64,000 nucleotides of DNA from Ignavibacteria bacterium. Its GTDB lineage: Bacteria; Bacteroidota; Ignavibacteria; Kapaibacteriales; Kapaibacteriaceae. The notes beneath the pieces were generated by a model. The model saw only the letters and a list, made by a program, of their open reading frames with translations. It was not told the DNA's origin and made no database searches. Numbering within the stretch: position 1 is the stretch's first letter; each line of letters begins with the position of its first letter. Both the position numbers and the translations under genes were made by a program. The DNA lies in NCBI GenBank assembly GCA_947495975.1, contig CANMBE010000012.1:1-64000 (forward strand). The letters run 5' to 3'. Positions 6,919-49,301 of the stretch are shown piece by piece.

Positions 6919-8121
6919 ATGGCAAAAGAAAAATTTGAGCGGAATAAGCCGCACGTAAATGTTGGAACCATTGGTCACGTTGACCACGGCAAGACAACGC
7001 TTACTGCAGCAATCACCATGTGTTTGGCTTCTAAGGGCCTTTCAGCGAAGCGTTCGTTCGACTCGATCGACAATGCTCCTGAAGAAAAAGCACGTGGAAT
7101 AACGATCGCAACGGCGCACGTAGAATACGAGACAGAGAATCGTCACTACGCGCACGTTGATTGTCCGGGCCACGCCGATTATGTAAAGAACATGATCACT
7201 GGTGCAGCTCAGATGGACGGCGCAATCCTTGTTGTTGCAGCCACTGACGGTCCGATGCCACAAACGCGTGAGCACATTCTGCTTGCACGTCAAGTTGGTG
7301 TACCTCGTATCGTGGTGTTCATGAACAAGGTTGACATTGCGGATCCAGATCTTGTGGAACTCGTTGAGATGGAAATCCGCGAGCTGCTCACGAAGTACGA
7401 ATATCCAGGCGACGATATTCCAATCATCAAGGGTTCTGCTCTAAAGGCACTTGATGCATCTTCAGGCGAAGGTGGAGACGCTGCGGATATGGCGTGCATC
7501 TTTGAACTGATGGCAGCTGTAGACGAATACATCCCAACACCAATTCGTGATGTTGATAAGCCGTTTCTTATGCCGGTAGAAGACGTGTTCTCGATCACTG
7601 GTCGTGGAACAGTTGGTACTGGTCGTATCGAACGTGGAATTGTAAAGGTTAACGAAGAAGTTGAAATCGTTGGATTTGGTCTTCAAAAGAAGACCATCGT
7701 AACAGGTATCGAAATGTTCCGCAAGCTGCTCGACGAAGGTCGCGCTGGCGATAACGTTGGACTCTTGTTGCGCGGTGTGGACAAGGAAGAAATCGAGCGC
7801 GGAATGGTTATTGCCAAGCCGGGATCGATTACTCCTCACCATAAGTTTAAGGCGCAAGCCTACGTGCTTACGAAAGAAGAAGGCGGCCGTCACACGCCAT
7901 TCTTTACAAACTACCGTCCTCAGTTCTACTTCCGTACAACAGACGTAACAGGTGTACTCAACTTGCCAGCTGGCGTTGAGATGATCATGCCTGGTGACAA
8001 TGTTGACAATCTCGAAGTAGTGCTTATCACACCAATCGCAATGGAAGAGGGCCTTCGCTTCGCCATTCGCGAAGGTGGACGTACGGTAGGTGCTGGTGTA
8101 GTGGCGACGATCATCGAATAA
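6919..8121 (+). CDS. tuf: Elongation factor Tu
   Basis: EF-Tu delivers aminoacyl-tRNA to the ribosome. The product has 400 residues with [11 protein letters not shown] (P-loop), [12 protein letters not shown] (G3), NKVD (G4) and SALKA (G5), followed by the two beta-barrel domains. GAGGAG lies 8 nt before the ATG. It is the last gene of the str cluster and directly precedes rpsJ. Only one tuf copy is in the window. Confidence 0.98.
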
Positions 8122-8143
8122 CAAACCGAATTTTGAGATTCAT

Positions 8144-8168
8144 CGAGGGGGTAACTCCCCTCGTTTTG
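8144..8168 (+). terminator. Hairpin between tuf and rpsJ, weak terminator or attenuator
   Basis: CGAGGGG (8144-8150) pairs with CCCCTCG (8157-8163) around a 6-nt loop and is followed by TTTTG. The short T run suggests partial termination, which would set the ratio of tuf to S10-operon mRNA. Confidence 0.6.
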
Positions 8169-8202
8169 TCTCTGACAGAAACTCCAACCAGGGGAATAAC
8201 GA

Positions 8203-8511
8203 GTGGCAACGCAACGCATTCGCATAAAGCTTCGTTCTTACGATCATAATCTTATTGATCGTTCGGCAGAGCGCATTGTTCGCACAGTGAAGCAAACAGG
8301 TGCAGTGGTCTCCGGACCAATACCGCTACCTACAGAGCGCACGGTGTACACAGTGCTGCGGTCTCCTCACGTGGACAAGAAATCGCGTGAGCAATTTGAA
8401 GCTCGTGTGCACAAGCGTGTTATCGACATCTTCAGCAGTACGCAGAAGACAATCGATGCGCTTATGCGCCTAGAGTTACCGGCGGGTGTTGATGTGGAAG
8501 TGAAAGTCTAG
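8203..8511 (+). CDS. rpsJ: 30S ribosomal protein S10
   Basis: S10 is part of the 30S head and, in other bacteria, partners NusB in antitermination. The product has 102 residues, the usual size, with [18 protein letters not shown] at the N-terminus. The start is GTG, placed 8 nt after AGGGGAA. It opens the S10 operon. Confidence 0.97.
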
Positions 8512-40443: not shown

Positions 40444-40517
40444 GGTCCCGTAGTTCAGCTGGATAGAACGTCAGCCTCCGAAGCTGAAGGTCAGCGGTTC
40501 GACTCCGCTCGGGACTA
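40444..40517 (+). tRNA. tRNA-Arg, anticodon CCG
   Basis: A 74-nt cloverleaf folds: acceptor GGTCCCG/CGGGACT (first pair G-T), D stem GTTC/GAAC, anticodon stem TCAGC/GCTGA with loop CTCCGAA (anticodon CCG, reads CGG), variable loop AGGTC, and T stem AGCGG/CCGCT with loop TTCGACT. CCA is not encoded. The last 16 bases plus one recur exactly at 44188 and 47992, as expected when a mobile element has used the tRNA 3' end as target. Confidence 0.92.
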
Positions 40518-40810
40518 CAGATTCGCTAGCGGCACTGCTTTAGGTCCCTCGTCGGAAAGGTCGAGGCATGGCCTCGACCCTACCTCCTCGGGATGACGCA
40601 GGTCCCTCGCTCCGCTCGGGATGACGCAACGGCTCGCAGGTACGTAGTAAAGAAAGGCGAGCACCATCCATGATGGTGCTCGCCTTTCTCTTTTAAAAAA
40701 AATCGCGACGCGGCGTCATCCCGAGGCTTTGCGAGGGACCTGAGTAGAGATTCCCGCACCCCCTAACCATATCCAAATCCGCGCGCAACTGTCCACCAGA
40801 CGATGTGGTT
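40502..40810 (+). repeat. Left-end direct repeat, copy 1 (starts in the tRNA 3' end)
   Basis: The segment starts with the 17-mer ACTCCGCTCGGGACTAC of the tRNA. It contains a perfect 9-bp hairpin (GGTCGAGGC, loop ATG, GCCTCGACC; 40559-40579), REP-like units AGGTCCCTCG...TCGGGATGACGC in both orientations (40542-40628 and inverted at 40713-40741), and the terminator hairpin. It is nearly identical to 44188-44466, apart from a 28-bp extra REP unit at 40601-40628. The homology continues more weakly to about 40900. Confidence 0.85.
40652..40696 (+). terminator. Strong terminator after tRNA-Arg
   Basis: GAAAGGCGAGCACCATC (40652-40668) pairs perfectly with GATGGTGCTCGCCTTTC (40672-40688) around CAT, followed by TCTTTT and an A run, so it could work in both directions. 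Confidence 0.85.
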
Positions 40811-40866
40811 CGTCGTTCTTCTAGGTGCAGTGCTTGATCGCGGTTGAGTCTTCGTCCGAGTGCAAT

Positions 40867-40879
40867 ATCAAGTGGCCAC
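40867..40879 (+). repeat. IS21-like end motif, degenerate copy
   Basis: ATCAAGTGGCCAC corresponds to the ATCAGGTGGTCAC pair found at the equivalent place in the second unit (44523 and 44559). Multiple GTGGTCAC-type repeats are typical of IS21-family ends. Between here and the secreted-protein gene (about 180 bp) nothing else is recognised; the DNA becomes AT-rich. Confidence 0.35.
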
Positions 40880-41063
40880 TTTGCGTGGCTTTTCCATGCC
40901 ACCTAGGACGCCCGTCATCAGGCGAGATTCCATGGCAATAGCTCACAATGTAGGGATCCACTTAATCTGTTAATAAAACATCTGTAATAATATGTACGTA
41001 ATTGCCCGTAATTTGTATATTGTTTTTGTCGTAATCTGCTTCAATATTTCTTTAGAGATTGAG

Positions 41064-41654
41064 ATGATAAAAAGTATCGTACTTGCATGCCTAAGTGCAG
41101 TGGCCATGCTTGTTGTAGCGCCGACAGCCTCTATGGCTGTCCAAGTTTGCACAACTGAGGTTTTTTCAGCACCTCAACCTGGAGGTGGTTGTTGTGACGT
41201 CACTGTGACCTATTGTCATGACGTAGTTGGCGGGACCCTCGTCGTTTCGATAGGAGTGATAACAGTGCCAGACGACTGTCCAATTATTGTCAACCCCGGT
41301 TTTTTCAATTGGCTCCGCAAGAAGATTGTATTTGAACTAAATAAACCTGGCCGTCGCAATTTGGGAATTCCTAATTGCCCTACCACATCTACAATAACAG
41401 TTCAGACGGGTTATGCTAGTTGCTATACGATGAGCTATCAAAGCGTTTCTCACACCAAGATCTATGATCCGTGTGGTGATGCCATGTGCATCAGGACGTG
41501 CGAAGTCTGCCTTTCAACCACAGACACAGACGCTTGTTCAACCCCAGCAAATGAACCCATGTTGCAATACGTTGGGTGTTCGAATAGTATCAATCCGTGT
41601 ATTCCAGGCACCGGAAATAGTGGATGCAACATAAATACTTGCGACAGCAACTAA
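41064..41654 (+). CDS. Secreted 16-cysteine protein, island copy 1
   Basis: The 196-residue protein has a signal peptide (MIKSIVLACLSAVAMLVVAP) and a mature part with 16 cysteines. All 16 align with those of the paralogue at 46906-47514, enough for eight disulfides. Shared blocks are GGGCCDVTVTYC/GGCCTITVTYC, DCPIIVNPGFFNW, ACSTPANEPMLQYVGC and the identical end INTCDSN. No known family is recognised. The ATG at 41064 is chosen because it gives a clean signal peptide; an upstream ATG would add 24 hydrophobic residues. It is followed after 37 bp by the T9SS-type gene and the pair probably acts together outside the cell. Confidence 0.75.
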   Translation: MIKSIVLACLSAVAMLVVAPTASMAVQVCTTEVFSAPQPGGGCCDVTVTYCHDVVGGTLVVSIGVITVPDDCPIIVNPGFFNWLRKKIVFELNKPGRRNLGIPNCPTTSTITVQTGYASCYTMSYQSVSHTKIYDPCGDAMCIRTCEVCLSTTDTDACSTPANEPMLQYVGCSNSINPCIPGTGNSGCNINTCDSN

Positions 41655-41691
41655 CCTAAAGCAAGCTTTTCCCAAGTAACATGGCAAGGCA

Positions 41692-43911
41692 ATGAGATAC
41701 ATCCTATTGGTATTGCTCTTGACTGCATCCATAGTGCATTCGAGTTCACAAATCGCTCGAATCGAGCAACTGTATGCCTTCGAGCATTCCGAACCAACGT
41801 CGATATTGGAACATGATAATCAGTACTTCTGCACCTATCTAAACGGACAGGTGGCCGTATTTGATGCGAAGAACCTTCAACCACGTTTGGTTCAGATACC
41901 AGTAGGAATCTACGTTACGGACGTCTATTCAGCAGATGGCCTGCTCTGGATTCATTCCAGCACAGGCCATCTATTTTATTCAGCAAGTAGTGGCCTCGCG
42001 TGGGATGACTATGGATGTGAAACTTTTGCTGTCTTCAAACCGCATGGTGCCGGTTTGTACTTTGCCGTTGGGGATACAATTCGCAGAATCTCTCGCCAAG
42101 GACAATCAGTTTCGGATTCTGTCTATCGTGTGATTCAAGACTCAAGAACACTCGAATCGTTTGCGATCAGGAATGACACAGCGGTCGTAATTTTCCGTTT
42201 ATCTGACTCTATGAGCGTGATTGCAAGCGATTTGATTTGGGTGCTCCCCTTGGATTATGCGAGAGTAGCTCACTTCTATCAGCTGAACGATGAATCAATA
42301 GTGTACGTCACTCTTGGTCAACGACTATATTTTCAAAGCTCCAGTCTTAGACTTTCTTTTTTAAACTATACATCCACGTTGTCTATGAACTTTGTTGCGG
42401 CAATTGTTCCTGGCAACTATAACAATGACTTTACGCTTGTTGCATCCGGGTTTAATTCTGTTCCTTTTAAACACCTTGTGAGCAAAATCGGTTCGGACCG
42501 AGTCGGAGGAGTTGTCTTAGAGTCCTCAGGTAGTTATGGCCGATTGAGAGCAGCCACTGTTCATGATGATTCAGTCATTGTCCTAACCGCCTACGGCAAG
42601 GCCGTGCTTCAAACTGGAACATCGCTTGACTCCTCAACATCGAACTATCCAGATGTTTTTGATCGTGGAGGGTTTGGGTATTCCTTCCTTGACAACAAGG
42701 ATGTTGTCACAAGATCTCTTCCCCGCTCAGTCGCGTCTGGATATCGTAGCATTCTATATTCTGATTTCAAAGTGAACGAACTGTTTGAATCCGAGTCTAG
42801 GGTGCTTCGAGACTCATTGGGCGCCGCACAAAGTCTGATTGGCAACGATCTCACCGGCATTGTTGCCTCAACTAGCAAGAGTATCGCATTTGCTCCTTCT
42901 GTTGCGGGGCCATGGAGCATTGCGTTGCCAATAAATGGTGGTCAACTGTTCAGGCTCAGAGATGGAGGCCTCGTATCAACGATTCTTGGCAATGGGGTTG
43001 GGCTGTCGAATGACAATGGTAAAACATGGAGCGTGCACTACATAAAGAGTATGTTCAATGGTTTTGTTCAAGCCGTTTCAGACGGCAACTTCATTGCCCT
43101 CAACCGTGGTCTCGAATTGTACATCCTGCCGAGACCCCTTGCTGGAGATACCGTGGTGCCGTTCACATACACTCCAACACATGGAGGCAGCATTACTATC
43201 CTCGATTTGAAAGGTGACACAGCATATCTACTCCACCCTCGGTATACATCCAAATTGTCACGCGAGCTGGACAGGCTTGTGTTACTTCGTGTATCGAGAA
43301 AAGGGGTTCTGGATTCTACGGTGATTTCATTGCCGGAACCGTTGCCGGGCTTTTCTCGCGTTAGTGCGGCACTTTTCAACGACACCGTTGTTGTTTATGA
43401 GAGTATTTCCGCGCGATACCTGATGATTATGAATGGTGAGCTTATCTATGACTCGGTATTGCCCCAGTCCATGCGTGAGCCCTTCGCGAGCGCTGCCCAA
43501 CTAAATATGACCGCAACTATAATGAATTCTAAACATGTTCGGGTGATCTCGCCCGATTACGGTTTTGCCGCTGACATCTATCCGTTTGGTGTTGATTCGA
43601 CAGTTGGGGTTGTGGATCAGTATATTTCTCACTTCTATATCTCCGTCGTTAGACCTAATCCAGCAGCAGGATCTATCAATGTTGATATAGGGAAATTCGT
43701 AACCGCAGATGTAAAGGGTGTAACTCTGCACCTTTGCGCACTTGACGGCAAGATAGAACGCGACTTTACGGAACAACTTCCCGTGTTTGGGAGTGGGAAT
43801 GAAGTTAAGACCGTAACATTGAATATTGGAGATGTTGCTTGTGGCGCCTATCTCCTTGTCATACGCAGCTCTAAGAATGTTCATTCCTACAAAGTGATGG
43901 TTGTTCGTTGA
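41692..43911 (+). CDS. T9SS-exported propeller-like protein, island copy 1
   Basis: The 739-residue protein has a signal peptide (MRYILLVLLLTASIVHSSSQ), a long beta-rich body with propeller-like repeats (GNGVGLSNDNGKTWSVHYIK is BNR-like), and a C-terminal type A sorting domain from about residue 655: VVRPNPAAGSINVDIG, then LCALDGKIERDF and GAYLLVIRSSKNVHSYKVMV. It should cross the outer membrane by the type IX system and stay on the surface or be released. It is homologous along its length to the gene at 44651-46876. The sorting domain is almost identical between the two and the body much less so. The function is unknown. Confidence 0.82.
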   Translation: MRYILLVLLLTASIVHSSSQIARIEQLYAFEHSEPTSILEHDNQYFCTYLNGQVAVFDAKNLQPRLVQIPVGIYVTDVYSADGLLWIHSSTGHLFYSASSGLAWDDYGCETFAVFKPHGAGLYFAVGDTIRRISRQGQSVSDSVYRVIQDSRTLESFAIRNDTAVVIFRLSDSMSVIASDLIWVLPLDYARVAHFYQLNDESIVYVTLGQRLYFQSSSLRLSFLNYTSTLSMNFVAAIVPGNYNNDFTLVASGFNSVPFKHLVSKIGSDRVGGVVLESSGSYGRLRAATVHDDSVIVLTAYGKAVLQTGTSLDSSTSNYPDVFDRGGFGYSFLDNKDVVTRSLPRSVASGYRSILYSDFKVNELFESESRVLRDSLGAAQSLIGNDLTGIVASTSKSIAFAPSVAGPWSIALPINGGQLFRLRDGGLVSTILGNGVGLSNDNGKTWSVHYIKSMFNGFVQAVSDGNFIALNRGLELYILPRPLAGDTVVPFTYTPTHGGSITILDLKGDTAYLLHPRYTSKLSRELDRLVLLRVSRKGVLDSTVISLPEPLPGFSRVSAALFNDTVVVYESISARYLMIMNGELIYDSVLPQSMREPFASAAQLNMTATIMNSKHVRVISPDYGFAADIYPFGVDSTVGVVDQYISHFYISVVRPNPAAGSINVDIGKFVTADVKGVTLHLCALDGKIERDFTEQLPVFGSGNEVKTVTLNIGDVACGAYLLVIRSSKNVHSYKVMVVR

Positions 43912-44060
43912 TTAATAAGTCTCTAGTTGGCTTGCCTGCTTGGTTCTAATCCAGGATGTTTTGTACCTTCCTTTGGTATGATCCCACCAATCAAAGTCCC
44001 TGTTTTTTTCGGCGGCCAGTGACCTACCCCCGATTGTCAGCCTATCTTTAATCGTAGTCA

Positions 44061-44187
44061 CTATGTGGAGATTTCGTGTAAAATGGCTCATGAAATCCGC
44101 GTCAAATACTGCCAGTGACAGCGCCAGTAAAATTGTTTGCCGGAAAGCTAACTAGCATACACAGGTGACCTTAGCACCGAAAACCCG
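44061..44187 (+). repeat. Right-end repeat, copy 1
   Basis: These 127 bp align without gaps to 47865-47991 at roughly two thirds identity, with a perfect 20-bp core ACTGCCAGTGACAGCGCCAG. Both copies end exactly at a 17-mer of the tRNA 3' end. Upstream, a CAGTGACC motif at 44018-44025 resembles an IS21-type end repeat. The remaining 100 bp after the T9SS gene show no gene and no clear terminator. Confidence 0.65.
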
Positions 44188-44466
44188 ACTCCGCTCGGGA
44201 CTACAGATTCGCTAGCGGCACTGCTTTAGGTCCCTCGTCGGAAAGGTCGAGGCATGGCCTCGACCCTACCTCCTCGGGATGACGCACCGGCTCGCAGGTA
44301 CGTAGTAAAGAAAGGCGAGCACCATCCATGATGGTGCTCGCCGTTCTCTTTTTAAAAATCACGATGCGGCGTCATCCCGAGGCTTTGCGAGGGACCTGAG
44401 TAGAGATTCCCGCACCCCCTAACCATATCCAAATCCGCGCGCAACTGTCCACCAGACGATGTGGTT
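44188..44466 (+). repeat. Left-end direct repeat, copy 2
   Basis: The second copy of the segment that begins in the tRNA-Arg 3' end. It starts with the exact 17-mer and keeps the 9-bp hairpin, the REP-like units (44228-44285, inverted 44369-44397) and the terminator hairpin. No tRNA body precedes this copy, so it is an att-like duplication and not a second tRNA. Confidence 0.85.
44310..44353 (+). terminator. Copy of the tRNA-Arg terminator
   Basis: This is the same long hairpin as at 40652, with one change in the right arm (CCGTT for CCTTT) and a following T run. Lying between two converging gene pairs, it could end transcripts from both sides. Confidence 0.7.
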
Positions 44467-44522
44467 GGTCATTCTTCAAAGCGCAATGCTAGATTGCAGT
44501 TGCGTCTGCGTTGTTGTGCAAT

Positions 44523-44559
44523 ATCAGGTGGTCACTTTGGCGCGGAATCAGGTGGTCAC
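44523..44559 (+). repeat. Paired IS21-like end repeats
   Basis: ATCAGGTGGTCAC occurs twice, at 44523-44535 and 44547-44559, 24 bp apart, each followed by a GCGCGG or ACGCGG box. Closely spaced GTGGTCAC repeats are the mark of IS21-family termini. No istA or istB is present. Confidence 0.45.
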
Positions 44560-44650
44560 ATAACGCGGATTTTCCAAAAATGCGTAAGTACCTGGTCCTG
44601 TTGCGAGCCATGGCTATCACGTGGAGCGACATGTCGCCCGATGCAAGAGG

Positions 44651-46876
44651 TCAACGCTCTACCATCACTTTATAGGAGTGAACGTTCTTGGAACTTCGCA
44701 CGACGAGAAGGTACGCGCCAGTGGCAACGCCGGAAACGTCAAGCGTTACAGTCTTGACTTCGTTCCCGCTCCCAAAAACAGGAAGCTGAGCAGAAAAATC
44801 ACGCTCTATCTTACCGTCCATGGCGCAGAGTTGCAGAGTTACGCCATTCAAATCTGCCGTAACGAATTTGCCAATCTCCACAACGATTGTACCCGATGCG
44901 GGATTGGGCTTTACGACGGATATGTAGTAATGTGAAATACTCTGTTCTACAACAGACACCGCGCTGTCTTCACCGAACGGGAATATGCTTGTTGCAATTC
45001 CGTACTGAGGCATGACAATTCTGATGTGTCTAGTACTGTTGATTGTAGTTGTTGCAAGGTGATAAAGTGTGAAAGGATCCTTCACATTCTGTGACAAGGT
45101 GGATTCGTAGATGACTTCGCCATTCTTAATAAGAATGAATCTCGCCGTTACACGGTCATAAACTACTAATGTGTCATTAACGAGACGTGCAGTAGCGCGA
45201 GAGTAGTTGGCAAGAGGATTTGCAAGAGTGATGACAGTTGAGTCCAATACTCCAATACGAGAGACATGAAGAAGCTCGAAACGATTAAACGACTCCTGCG
45301 AAGTTTCTGCGAACATCGGATGAAAAAAGTATGCCGTGTCACCTTGCAACCCGAGTATCGTCAAGTCACCGCCAGGGACCGGAGAGTATAGATACCTAGC
45401 GACAGTATCACCGGTAAGATGTCGAGGTAGTATATAGATCTCTTTTCGACGGTTAAATGCCAGAAAATCAGCGGATTCCAAAACCTGAAAGAAGCCGCCA
45501 AACATGCCCTTTATATAGTGTACACTCCACGTCTTTCCTTGGTCTTCAGAAACACCAACCCCATTGCCCAATAATGACGAAATTAAGCTACCACTTGCGA
45601 GTTTATAAATTCTACCGCCTCTAATTGGTAATGCGTGTTTCCACGGTCCCGCAACCGATGGCGAATATGCAATGCTCTCACTACCAGAGGCGACATACCC
45701 ATTTTGATCATCGCCAAGTAGCTGCTCAACTTCACCAAGTGAATCACGGAATCCTATTGATTCTTTTTCGAAAGGCTCTCGAATCTCCTGTTTCGTATAA
45801 AGCAGATGGCGGTAGTCAATCTCTTTTGAAACGGGCAGAAGCGATCGGATGATTCCTTCCTTCCCCTGAACTACTGAGTACTTCAAGGGATTATATGCTC
45901 GATTGGGAAGGATAGACAGAGAAGAATCTACCGTGACTAAGTTGAGACTCATGACTTTGCCATAGGGTGACAGCGTGTAGACAGTATCGTCATTCATTGT
46001 AAGCACGTTAAACCCAAGCCACGGCTCTATCGGTCGATTTAATATGACTTGTCCCCCATTTGTAGGATCGATCCGGACAACGATCACAGAATCTGCGTTG
46101 GTTACGCGATTTCCGCCCGAGAACATCATAGCGAGTTTCCCATTAGTGCGACCTATCCCCAGTCCAGAGATGGAGGGAACGCCAACTGCTGATGTAATAT
46201 CTTGAAATCCCGTAGATAGATTTGGTCTTTGAAGGTAAACGCGGTTAAACGTTGAGAAATACGCAATCGTCCCATCATCGAACTGATAGAAATTAGCCGC
46301 TCTTGCCTGTTGCCACAAAGGGCTTGTGAAAGTTCTGTTTTCAACAAACACACTCATTGAATCTGTAAACTGAAAGATCGTTATCACCGTGTCAGACTTG
46401 ATCGCAAACGACTCGATTGGGCGTAGGTCGGCAACTACTCGAACAACTGAATCTGTGATTACTGTCCCATTGCGTTTCAGTAGGTGAATAGTATCGCTAA
46501 CGGCAACATACAGCCCGCTGCCATGGGGTTTGAATGCTGCCAATACGGAGTGGCCGTAACTGACCCATGATCCACCACTATTAATTGTATAAAAAAGACG
46601 GCCTGCGCTAGTGTGGATCCAGAGCAGGCCATCTGCTGAATAGAGATCAGTAACGTAAGCTCCTGATGGCGTTGGTACTAACCGTGGTTGAAGATTCTCT
46701 GAATCGAAGACAGAGACTTGCCCATTGTTATAGGAACAGAAATATTGCCCGCCGTGTGCCATAACAGACCTTGGTTCAGCATGCTCGAAGCCAAAGATCT
46801 GTTCCACATAGGCGGACTGGGCCCTTGTAGTGATAACGAAAGATAATATCGCAAGTATGACAAAGAGATATTTCAT
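44651..46876 (-). CDS. T9SS-exported propeller-like protein, island copy 2
   Basis: The 741-residue paralogue of the protein at 41692-43911 lies in the opposite orientation. It has a signal peptide (MKYLFVILAILSFVITTRAQ), the shared N-terminal block (FGFEHAEPRSVMAHGGQYFC and YVTDLYSADGLLWIH), the BNR-like GNGVGVSEDQGKTWSVHYIK and a C-terminal type A sorting domain (VVKPNPASGTIVVEIG, then LCAMDGKIERDF and GAYLLVVRSSKNVHSYKVMV). The sorting domain is strongly conserved between the copies, while the body has diverged. That suggests either different binding targets or gene conversion at the 3' end. It follows the Cys-rich gene by 29 bp. Confidence 0.82.
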   Translation of the reverse strand: MKYLFVILAILSFVITTRAQSAYVEQIFGFEHAEPRSVMAHGGQYFCSYNNGQVSVFDSENLQPRLVPTPSGAYVTDLYSADGLLWIHTSAGRLFYTINSGGSWVSYGHSVLAAFKPHGSGLYVAVSDTIHLLKRNGTVITDSVVRVVADLRPIESFAIKSDTVITIFQFTDSMSVFVENRTFTSPLWQQARAANFYQFDDGTIAYFSTFNRVYLQRPNLSTGFQDITSAVGVPSISGLGIGRTNGKLAMMFSGGNRVTNADSVIVVRIDPTNGGQVILNRPIEPWLGFNVLTMNDDTVYTLSPYGKVMSLNLVTVDSSLSILPNRAYNPLKYSVVQGKEGIIRSLLPVSKEIDYRHLLYTKQEIREPFEKESIGFRDSLGEVEQLLGDDQNGYVASGSESIAYSPSVAGPWKHALPIRGGRIYKLASGSLISSLLGNGVGVSEDQGKTWSVHYIKGMFGGFFQVLESADFLAFNRRKEIYILPRHLTGDTVARYLYSPVPGGDLTILGLQGDTAYFFHPMFAETSQESFNRFELLHVSRIGVLDSTVITLANPLANYSRATARLVNDTLVVYDRVTARFILIKNGEVIYESTLSQNVKDPFTLYHLATTTINSTRHIRIVMPQYGIATSIFPFGEDSAVSVVEQSISHYYISVVKPNPASGTIVVEIGKFVTADLNGVTLQLCAMDGKIERDFSAQLPVFGSGNEVKTVTLDVSGVATGAYLLVVRSSKNVHSYKVMVER

Positions 46877-46905
46877 GTGATCCTCAAGGCAAGGTGAGAC
46901 TCGTC

Positions 46906-47514
46906 TTAGTTACTGTCGCAGGTGTTTATGACACAGTCTGGCTTTGAAGCATCGGGTACGCAGGGCACGGTAGTGTACACACATCCTACATACTGCAACA
47001 TCGGTTCATTGGCAGGTGTTGAACAGGGGTCTGTTTGTGAAGTAGACAAACAGACGGCACATCTTCTTAGGCATATCGATGTGCCACAAGGATTGTAAAT
47101 GTTAAAACCGGTACCCCCCACAAGAGCATACTGTTTCATATAGCAACTAGACTGACCCGTTTCAACGGTCAATTGAGTTGTTGTGGGGCAATTAAAAATT
47201 TCGGGAATCCCACCTGCCAAACTAAGTCTAAACACAATTTTCTTACTGAGCCAGTTGAACAGCCCTGGGTTAACTATGAGAGGACAGTCGGCTGGGACCG
47301 TAATCGTACCTATAACAAGTGTGAGGGTAGTACCTGAATACAGATAGCAATATGTCACTGTAATCGTGCAACAGCCTCCATCCGGCAGTGGAGCGGAAAA
47401 AGCCTGTGTTGTTGTGGTAGAACCAGGTGGGCATACTGGCTGCGCTATTGTTTCAGCAGCACCCGCAAACAACATGGCTATAAAAACCAATATTGAAAAG
47501 AATGAAAATTTCAT
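46906..47514 (-). CDS. Secreted 16-cysteine protein, island copy 2
   Basis: The 202-residue paralogue of the protein at 41064-41654 has a signal peptide (MKFSFFSILVFIAMLFAGAA) and 16 cysteines in the same order. Conserved blocks include DCPLIVNPGLFNWLSKKIVF and CSTPANEPMLQYVGC. GGAGG lies 8 nt before the ATG. It is first in a two-gene minus-strand unit with the T9SS protein, the same gene order as copy 1, so the whole cargo is inverted relative to copy 1. Confidence 0.77.
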   Translation of the reverse strand: MKFSFFSILVFIAMLFAGAAETIAQPVCPPGSTTTTQAFSAPLPDGGCCTITVTYCYLYSGTTLTLVIGTITVPADCPLIVNPGLFNWLSKKIVFRLSLAGGIPEIFNCPTTTQLTVETGQSSCYMKQYALVGGTGFNIYNPCGTSICLRRCAVCLSTSQTDPCSTPANEPMLQYVGCVYTTVPCVPDASKPDCVINTCDSN

Positions 47515-47606
47515 CTCGTAGTCCTCCCGTACAACTTATACAGTAAGAGGCTTGATGACCTCGTATTACAACCAACGTATAAAAACAGATGCAATTGGTG
47601 CACGGC

Positions 47607-47673
47607 GTGTAACTCTTCGCTCATTTTCTCTCTGCCCAACTAACCAATGCGCTTAACTACAAAAGAGTTACAC
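47607..47673. promoter_or_regulatory. 11-bp inverted repeat upstream of the Cys-rich gene
   Basis: GTGTAACTCTT (47607-47617) and AAGAGTTACAC (47663-47673) are perfect inverted copies 45 nt apart in the 350-bp region upstream of the minus-strand pair. They could be an operator or the ends of a short insertion. Confidence 0.35.
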
Positions 47674-47864
47674 AAGGTAATCCACGCAGGTTCCCATCCC
47701 AGACCCCTATAGATAGGAACCCTAGTGAGTCTCGATCCTTGGCTGACGACATGCATTTTCCGCTTAGTGACCAGTTTCGGCGATCACCGAGGGGACCTGA
47801 CCGCATAGCGGACGAATAGGCAAAGCACGAGAAATGACTCCTGATCCACCTATAATGTTAGCAT

Positions 47865-47991
47865 CTACGTGGAGATTCCGGGTTAAGTGCTCAATGAAGT
47901 CGGCGATAGAAACTGCCAGTGACAGCGCCAGTCAAATTATTTCGCGTCGGACTAACCGTCATATATGGTTGATCTTAGCTTTGAAAAATGT
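47865..47991 (+). repeat. Right-end repeat, copy 2
   Basis: This is the partner of 44061-44187: same length, same orientation, and also ending at a 17-mer. About 100 bp upstream, AGTGACCAGTTTCGGCGATC (47766-47785) resembles an IS21-type end. A small reading frame through this repeat is not conserved in copy 1 and is not called a gene. Confidence 0.65.
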
Positions 47992-48008
47992 ACTCCGCTC
48001 GGGACTAC
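47992..48008 (+). repeat. Third copy of the tRNA-Arg 3' end (att-like site)
   Basis: ACTCCGCTCGGGACTAC is identical to 40502-40518 and 44188-44204. The flanking bases downstream differ from the other two, so this is the distal boundary of the island. About 50 bp later the minus-strand methyltransferase gene ends. Confidence 0.75.
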
Positions 48009-48056: not shown

Positions 48057-49301
48057 CTACAGCGGTATTTTCTTCATCCGTGCCATAAACAGCCCATCGG
48101 TTCCATGGTGGAATGGATCGGCTTGAAACATGTGGCTCGCTGATGTATGCAGGTCAGGAATATGAATACCATATTTCTCAAAACACGGGGCTAATGGATC
48201 TGGCTGAAAATCCGGATGCTCTGATAAAAAGTGTTCAATCACACGCTCGTTTTCTTCAGGCAGGATGCTACACGTAGAATACACAAGTACGCCACCCTCG
48301 CGTACGTGAGGAGCATATTCTTTGAGGACGGATTGCTGTTTGCGGACGTGGCGTTTTAACGATGCTTCATTCAGGCGCCACTTGGGCATTGGAAGTCTAC
48401 GCACGGTCCCCATGCCAGAACATGGTGCATCCACAAGAACAATGTCGTACAATGTTGGATGTCGTGCATCGAGTTGTTGACTCTCTGCGCGGGGTTGACG
48501 GCTCTGCTTTCTACCATCATCAACAGAAGCCCATACCGACCGAATGCCTGCACGGTTCGCTCGCGTTGGTACTTCCTTTAATCGATTCCATTCTATATCG
48601 TGCGCCGTGATACGCCCCTTATCACTTTGAATATCAGCAAGATGAAGACTCTTGCCACCAGCGCCAGCACAGGCATCGAGAATGTTATCGTCCTCGTTAG
48701 GCGCACAGGCATATCCAATGAGCTGACTTCCCTCATCCTGCACTTCAACAAAACCGCCTGTATACAATGGGTGCTGCTGTAGGTTCACACGTTGGTTTAC
48801 GATGATAGCCGCAGGTGATAAGGGGCCAATTGTACAATCAATACCTTCCTCTACAAGCTTCTGCAACACGCTGTTTCGCGTTACTCGTCTGAGATTCACG
48901 CGCAATACAAGTGGTGCGGAGTTCATCATAGCGCGCCACACATCAGCGGAATCATCAGGCCACCGCTTTTGAGTTGAGCTAAGCAGCCACTCCTGCGTGT
49001 TGATCTGAATATGAAATGGTAGGTCACCAATAAATGAAAGATCAACGTTCTCTGAATTGTCCTGAAGTAAGTGCGCGCCGTGAACAACGTCTTCTAGTGA
49101 AAGGTGTGCTGCAATTGCTTCACTCAATGAAAGTGTGCGCAACGTCTGAAAGACAAGTCCGCTTATGAAACGTCTATCGGCGCCGCCCAGATATTTTTTA
49201 GATCGAAAATATTCAGATGCGATTGCATCGCCCGGTTGCGGGCTCTTACGAATGATGCGAACAAGTTCGGCGCTATGGCCACGTAACGAGCTTAACTGCA
49301 T
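48057..49301 (-). CDS. RNA (cytosine-5-)-methyltransferase, NOL1/NOP2/Sun (RsmB-like)
   Basis: The 414-residue protein has an N-terminal NusB/RsmB-like helical part (GGADRRFISGLVFQTLRTLS) and a SAM-dependent domain with ILDACAGAGGKSLHLADIQS. The catalytic cysteines are in VDAPCSGMG and YSTCSI. It probably methylates 16S rRNA or tRNA. A hydrophilic insert (KQSRQPRAESQQLDARHP) interrupts the domain. Its start overlaps the neighbouring oxidoreductase gene by 10 bp, so the two are cotranscribed. Confidence 0.88.
   Translation of the reverse strand: MQLSSLRGHSAELVRIIRKSPQPGDAIASEYFRSKKYLGGADRRFISGLVFQTLRTLSLSEAIAAHLSLEDVVHGAHLLQDNSENVDLSFIGDLPFHIQINTQEWLLSSTQKRWPDDSADVWRAMMNSAPLVLRVNLRRVTRNSVLQKLVEEGIDCTIGPLSPAAIIVNQRVNLQQHPLYTGGFVEVQDEGSQLIGYACAPNEDDNILDACAGAGGKSLHLADIQSDKGRITAHDIEWNRLKEVPTRANRAGIRSVWASVDDGRKQSRQPRAESQQLDARHPTLYDIVLVDAPCSGMGTVRRLPMPKWRLNEASLKRHVRKQQSVLKEYAPHVREGGVLVYSTCSILPEENERVIEHFLSEHPDFQPDPLAPCFEKYGIHIPDLHTSASHMFQADPFHHGTDGLFMARMKKIPL

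Follow-up and report, generated by a model that had tools for sequence, protein, structure and literature searches.

Two related units in tandem at the tRNA-Arg(CCG) 3' end in an Ignavibacteria genome, and gene-end repeats around their cargo family at other gene junctions

Small gene cassettes without a recombinase of their own occur in bacterial hotspots, and the route by which they entered is hard to read from sequence. Several described systems resemble the array reported here. In a tandem array of tRNA-integrated islands of the Islander type, each island by definition has its own integrase gene (PMC4383910). Tandem stacking is known for the mobilisable island SGI1 (PMC2297512), which targets the 3' end of thdF. 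In the minimal mobile elements (MMEs) of Neisseria, two conserved genes flank different whole-gene cassettes in different strains, the cassettes being taken up through homologous recombination within those genes (PMC3082526). Integron cassette arrays, in which serial cassettes share one anchor site and a common recombination core, and IS21-derived MITEs complete the set.

The array lies in the window, i.e. the whole 64-kb stretch of DNA that was analysed, at its only tRNA gene, tRNA-Arg(CCG) (ARAGORN). In the order tRNA.T-R-M-cargo1-RE1-T-R-M-cargo2-RE2-T-rsmB, it is composed of the following features.

40444..40518, plus strand: tRNA-Arg(CCG), the anchor gene (ARAGORN; Rfam RF00005)
40502..40518, plus strand: T1, the 17-mer that is the 3' end of the tRNA gene (exact-match search)
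40519..40744, no strand assigned: R1, REP-like doublet with hairpin (REP units at 40587, 40615 and 40713)
40745..40896, plus strand: M1, IS21-ended MITE with one internal box deleted (profile match, E 1e-27)
40992..41654, plus strand: cargo 1, Cys-rich secreted protein, 220 aa (ORF; family alignment)
41692..43911, plus strand: cargo 1, T9SS-type beta-propeller protein (predicted), 739 aa (ORF; weak Por_Secre_tail; family alignment)
44066..44187, no strand assigned: RE1, right end of unit 1 with an IS21-like terminus at its start (76% to RE2; weak match to MITE ends)
44188..44204, plus strand: T2, the 17-mer between the units (exact-match search)
44205..44400, no strand assigned: R2, REP-like doublet with hairpin (97.4% to R1)
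44401..44576, plus strand: M2, IS21-ended MITE, 176 bp (profile match, E 4e-49)
44651..46876, minus strand: cargo 2, T9SS-type beta-propeller protein (predicted), 741 aa (ORF; TIGR04183; model and Foldseek, best match PorZ)
46906..47514, minus strand: cargo 2, Cys-rich secreted protein, 202 aa (ORF; alignment)
47870..47991, no strand assigned: RE2, right end of unit 2 (comparison with RE1)
47992..48008, plus strand: T3, the 17-mer at the outer edge of the array (exact-match search)
48057..49301, minus strand: rsmB-like gene, right-hand neighbour of the hotspot (present in 23/23 family genomes, usually near tRNA-Arg(CCG))

An earlier note on this DNA had described the essentials of this layout, and they are borne out: exact copies of the 17-mer start at 40502, 44188 and 47992, spacing the units by 3686 and 3804 bp, the cargo pair is read from the plus strand in unit 1 and the minus strand in unit 2, and the units hold no recombinase ORF. 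The array is like tRNA islands in its target at a tRNA 3' end, the restoration of that target and the displaced fragment at the far edge, and like SGI1 at thdF in its tandem units with a shared core at a gene 3' end. It differs from tRNA islands, however, in that no integrase is present in the units, nor in the genome beyond XerC/XerD, and in that the units span 3.7-3.8 kb with two genes each and have left ends made of dispersed REP and MITE sequences. Since the array contains the tRNA fragment but no integrase of its own, it stands outside the strict tRNA-island class. The likeness to integron cassette arrays is limited in a similar way by the lack of an integron integrase, the mixed orientation of the cargo and the tRNA-derived core.

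A genome-wide profile search for tyrosine recombinases returned XerC and XerD only, XerD above its cut-off and XerC as the best match just under the equivalog cut-off. Both fall well short of the integron-integrase cut-offs and resemble XerD/XerC, so that an integron integrase is absent. Sibling genomes of the genus mostly have 1-4 tyrosine recombinases each, with the exception of one (G017) that has 11, and no resolvase-family recombinase was found in the genus.

The joint between the units is intact as RE-T-R-M at 44066-44576, while both outer edges of the array are split exactly at T. In the one assembly from which the array is known, where misassembly at repeats is possible, this arrangement of an intact joint inside and a cut at T outside is as expected for an attL / attP-like / attR pattern. 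The 17-mers at 44188 and 47992 lie on the tRNA strand, in the right orientation for a displaced tRNA fragment, and shuffled sequence gives on average 0.11 matches to the 17-mer at up to 3 mismatches. The earlier note had warned that the 17-mers might derive from the spread of a REP-like unit or be common across the genome. Neither holds, as the 2.18-Mb genome has only these three copies at up to 1 mismatch and the 17-mer is no dispersed REP unit.

The two units are unequally related along their length. T, R and the 5' part of M are ~98% identical, RE and the 3' part of M 76-78%, whereas the T9SS proteins are 51% and the Cys-rich proteins 57% identical, with the cargo DNA homology stopping at the coding ends (BLAST). 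The contrast between the ~98% left part and the diverged right ends and cargos implies that the cargos are old, independent arrivals, and that T-R-M5' is a recently shared or homogenised segment. On the same grounds, recent copying of one entire unit with later flipping of its cargo is rejected. Had T drifted as far as RE, a 17-mer would have stayed unchanged with a probability of 0.76 to the power 17, about 0.01 by our own calculation. An unchanged T beside RE at 76% therefore suggests constraint on T, of the kind expected at a recombination core, although gene conversion with the tRNA gene could also account for it.

Alignment of both units maps the left repeat, which the earlier note had put at 280-310 bp, into T, R and M. 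That length fits the near-identical part, but the full repeat covers 382 bp at 86% (BLAST): 17 bp at 100%, the REP region at 97.4% (191/196 plus 30 bp of indels), 65 bp at 100% and ~87 bp at 78%. The right repeat, noted earlier as 127 bp, is real, and its length is adjusted to ~120 bp before the 17-mer at ~76% (by BLAST, 75% over about 148 bp). The left repeat is a composite of a REP doublet and a ~175-bp MITE with IS21-matching ends. The REP-type sequence CTCGGGATGACGC occurs five times in the window, always within the two left repeats, and R-like doublets are dispersed in three siblings (G014, G016 and G017). R as native sequence 3' of the tRNA was rejected because it is absent downstream of tRNA-Arg in the siblings examined.

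M is a complete MITE of ~175 bp, whose first 65 bp are identical between the units and the rest 78%. Same-kind MITEs of 170-173 bp are dispersed in G014 and G017, and intact IS21 elements in two further genomes (G008 and G009) carry the same kind of termini, a left terminus TGGAAATTCCGCG and a right terminus of CGGAAT followed by TATCCA or a close variant, with subterminal GTGGTCA boxes. With IS21-like termini, no transposase and dispersed copies of fixed size, M1 and M2 classify as IS21-derived MITEs, which they match also in subterminal boxes and the ~175-bp size; the cassettes as wholes differ and are not MITEs. The genome has four MITE copies (M1, M2 and two on contig C21) and a 31-bp piece on contig C18. 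No target-site duplication is evident by eye at M2, and none was found around M1 or M2, whose edges have been recombined. The breakpoint of M1/M2 identity falls inside the MITE, which shows later recombination that has blurred the original edges. Both right ends start with a terminus that weakly matches that of the MITE, but the MITE profile recognises neither RE1 nor RE2, so that the candidate reading of RE as a full inverted MITE copy is reduced to terminal resemblance. As both R and M are of dispersed kinds, some of the left repeat could have arrived independently. We first took the left end for one private to the element and then for a lone IS21 right end; both readings gave way to the complete dispersed MITE.

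It is an evenly balanced judgement, in our view, that the array represents two related non-autonomous cassettes stacked at the 3' end of tRNA-Arg(CCG) by circle-type (Campbell) integration, whichever enzyme was involved. In the circular form that we infer, a unit would run T-R-M-cargo-RE and be closed through RE-T-R-M. A single crossover between the T that it carries and the T that ends the tRNA gene would insert the unit, leave the tRNA gene whole and place a copy of T at the far edge, and repetition of the crossover would produce a tandem array. Each unit lineage would have acquired its cargo pair separately, which would explain the opposite orientations. Paper searches for tRNA islands in Ignavibacteria and for gene cassettes of the Campbell type yielded nothing.

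The tRNA-Arg(CCG) gene and the rsmB-like gene adjoin in much of the family (23 genomes; the names selD, frnE, rsmB and quinone oxidoreductase are our own reading of the translations). In several genomes of other genera the two genes run in the same direction and lie close together; in several of the array's genus they converge, with inserts between them. The insert is a beta-helix T9SS protein gene in G012 and, in G013, a GNAT acetyltransferase gene between 63-bp copies of the rsmB 3' end. Compared as an empty (G012) and a filled (G013) site, the two have collinear blocks that overlap by 63 bp of the rsmB 3' end around the 842-bp insert. In G020 (L105, 3403-4369), a four-helix-bundle-suffix gene with a topoisomerase zinc ribbon lies within an exact 29-bp flanking repeat. 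A YhcG/DUF1016 nuclease gene lies beside rsmB with a 24-bp flanking copy of the rsmB 3' end in G019 (L115, 177-1437), on a short contig that stops before any tRNA.

No sibling has T joined to the array's rsmB flank CAAGTCGATGC, i.e. an empty tRNA-Arg site, and the interval there has other inserts or rearrangements. The earlier note had named, as a finding that would speak against its reading, relatives that always hold both units in the same form; this is not the case, because siblings carry different cargo in the interval. It contains different genes in the array genome (G000), G012, G013 and G020, as do the cassette sites of MMEs, though here between species and not strains. MMEs are like the present case in having different whole-gene cassettes, here between tRNA-Arg and rsmB by species, and no mobility genes. 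However, they are defined by exchange via conserved flanks, whereas copies of the target end flank many cassettes here and the units stack; the available part of the MME source does not describe such repeats.

The same cargo family is found well beyond this hotspot. About 20 full-length relatives of the T9SS partner are encoded in the 23 family genomes, at unrelated gene junctions, and the named records found for them are Ignavibacteria MAGs. One cargo protein searched in each of the plasmid and phage records gave no match. Direct repeats (threshold at least 24 bp and at least 80% identity) flank 9/14 testable cassettes, at lengths of 38-475 bp, against 5/597 control intervals; the cassettes were chosen by cargo similarity and the controls taken from the same loci, so that the contrast describes this cargo family and not all genes. 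All five positive controls lie in the selD array locus. Five of the 14 cassettes lack a flanking repeat at the threshold, including unit 2, which scored negative because its repeat is 75-76% identical and the 17-mer is below the length limit.

The repeats mostly copy the ends of adjacent host genes. The longest, at 475 bp, copies a DsbA-family (frnE-like) gene and extends into the end of the T9SS gene; an ATG22-type MFS gene is copied over 167 bp and a lipase-like gene over 75 bp. A quinone oxidoreductase/rsmB junction is copied over ~175 bp in G008, and tRNA-Thr plus a SIS-domain gene end over 38 exact bp in G014, where the gene-end part was judged by eye; both neighbours are whole in these last two. 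Others consist of 116 bp of a T9SS gene end, 84 bp of an intergenic hairpin and 209 bp of REP-like sequence. Such gene-end repeats around one cargo family at many targets point to a general gene-end insertion process, not specific to tRNA-Arg. The reading of the earlier note, two mobile elements in series at a tRNA end, stands as to the two related units and the independent history and orientation of their cargo; the left repeat, however, is no private element end, and the mechanism is probably not tRNA-specific.

Three further loci are of note in their own right. In G016 (contig C20, L039, 10825-17107), selD-like 3' fragments recur between T9SS genes and delimit an array, which appears to be a separate array of the type found at tRNA-Arg and is outside the 9/14 count. 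In G005 (L043, 7668-8780), a ~215-bp unit is tandemly repeated beside the frnE-like target gene. Contig C21 of the array genome (1-8381; L033, L046) has two more Cys-rich/T9SS pairs in opposite orientations next to tRNA-Arg(ACG), with a complete MITE at 8057-8230 between cargo and tRNA and a second, partial MITE where the contig begins; the two are inverted and point towards the cargo. This locus was rejected as a second site with the same scar, as there is no tRNA-end repeat within the contig, which breaks inside the MITE.

At tRNA-Arg the 17-bp core suggests a lost or trans-acting integrase behind the crossover, and elsewhere the long, varied repeats suggest general recombination. Seventeen base pairs are short for RecA, a point against our reading. 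Judged by repeat length and placement, general recombination or repair would fit the wider family better, with its long varied repeats at many targets, some of them spanning gene junctions. Relatives have the gene pair in cassettes beside the ends of other genes as well, mostly with a copy of the neighbour's end, which suggests a common way of moving surface genes, and we infer that crossover at a gene-end copy is the mechanism common to the cargo family.

A tyrosine integrase would leave behind just such a short, conserved core, and a lost or trans-acting integrase is hence a serious rival at tRNA-Arg. The units would then be relics of two small satellite islands at the T-arm/acceptor site of tRNA-Arg, with the integrase elsewhere or deleted, and the repeats of the relatives would reflect other integrases and targets. 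The classic tDNA signature is present, namely a short, correctly oriented core at the 3' end of a tRNA gene (PMC4383910), T is conserved while its neighbours drift, and trans-mobilised, tandem-stacking islands are known from SGI1 (PMC2297512). Overall we rate it as rather unlikely: few tyrosine recombinases occur in most cassette-carrying siblings and only XerC/XerD in this genome, one cargo family at many targets would require many integrases, and repeats of 167-475 bp or spanning a junction are unusual for integrase cores.

A route without any circle seems improbable. Linear cargo captured at staggered or sister-chromosome breaks would duplicate the target on insertion, and the 17-mer would be the tRNA part of the duplicated stretch. 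The variable repeat lengths (24-475 bp) and the whole neighbours on both sides in G008 (quinone oxidoreductase/rsmB) and G014 (SIS gene/tRNA-Thr) are in line with this, and transformation can produce duplications joined by imported DNA, but those described are of 100-900 kb (PMC3784515). It also leaves unexplained the kinship of RE1 and RE2, the fact that both end at T, and the unchanged T beside a drifted RE.

Quite improbable, finally, is IS21-driven movement, in which a transposase moved MITE-cargo-MITE blocks, or MITE recombination stacked and flipped them, with the tRNA-end copies as a by-product: the four MITE copies of the genome all border this cargo family, their termini match intact IS21 elements of the family, those on C21 are inverted and face the cargo, and M1/M2 identity breaks within the MITE, but no istA/istB pair was found in the genome (PF01695 matches are weak and not IS21-like), the MITE profile does not detect RE, cassettes of other genomes are without MITEs at their edges, and tRNA-end copying is not expected of IS21 transposition.

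Circle-type integration at a gene-end copy remains our preferred reading. As to the C-terminal sorting domain of T9SS cargo, the T9SS protein of unit 2 scores 23.3 bits with TIGR04183 (cut-off 23), PF18962 (Por_Secre_tail) stays below cut-off in both T9SS proteins, and the family alignment has a conserved C-terminal block. Structure prediction gives the T9SS partner a beta-propeller architecture; among PDB entries the unit 2 model matches PorZ best (Foldseek), at a TM-score of 0.28 and a mean pLDDT of 59, i.e. low confidence. The Cys-rich protein gave no PDB fold match. A long simple repeat lies just upstream in 5/15 Cys-rich genes of relatives, where ~0.007 per gene would be expected. These tracts are poly-G/C of 9-12 or (GT)8-12, up to 250 bp upstream or at the gene start (L034, L035, L036, L043, L050), and only 10 such tracts occur in 557 kb of family loci. 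This suggests that the Cys-rich cargo of relatives may be phase-variably expressed; the two units of the window have no such upstream simple repeat. Elsewhere in the window, an 11-G run at 4-14, ~36 bp upstream of a transporter-like ORF (51-1253), is a possible phase-variable promoter.

Tentatively, and with more doubt than confidence, we propose for this Ignavibacteria-type family a recombinase-independent cassette system for pairs of surface-protein genes, in which a copy of the adjacent gene's end, a single crossover and tandem stacking would move cargo that is partly under phase-variable repeat tracts. The duplicated gene end is a readable insertion scar in most testable copies of one cargo family at many junctions. 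Together with the empty and filled sibling sites, which hold other cargo at the same hotspot, this scar makes the insertion mechanism testable, and it links that mechanism to possibly phase-variable surface proteins.
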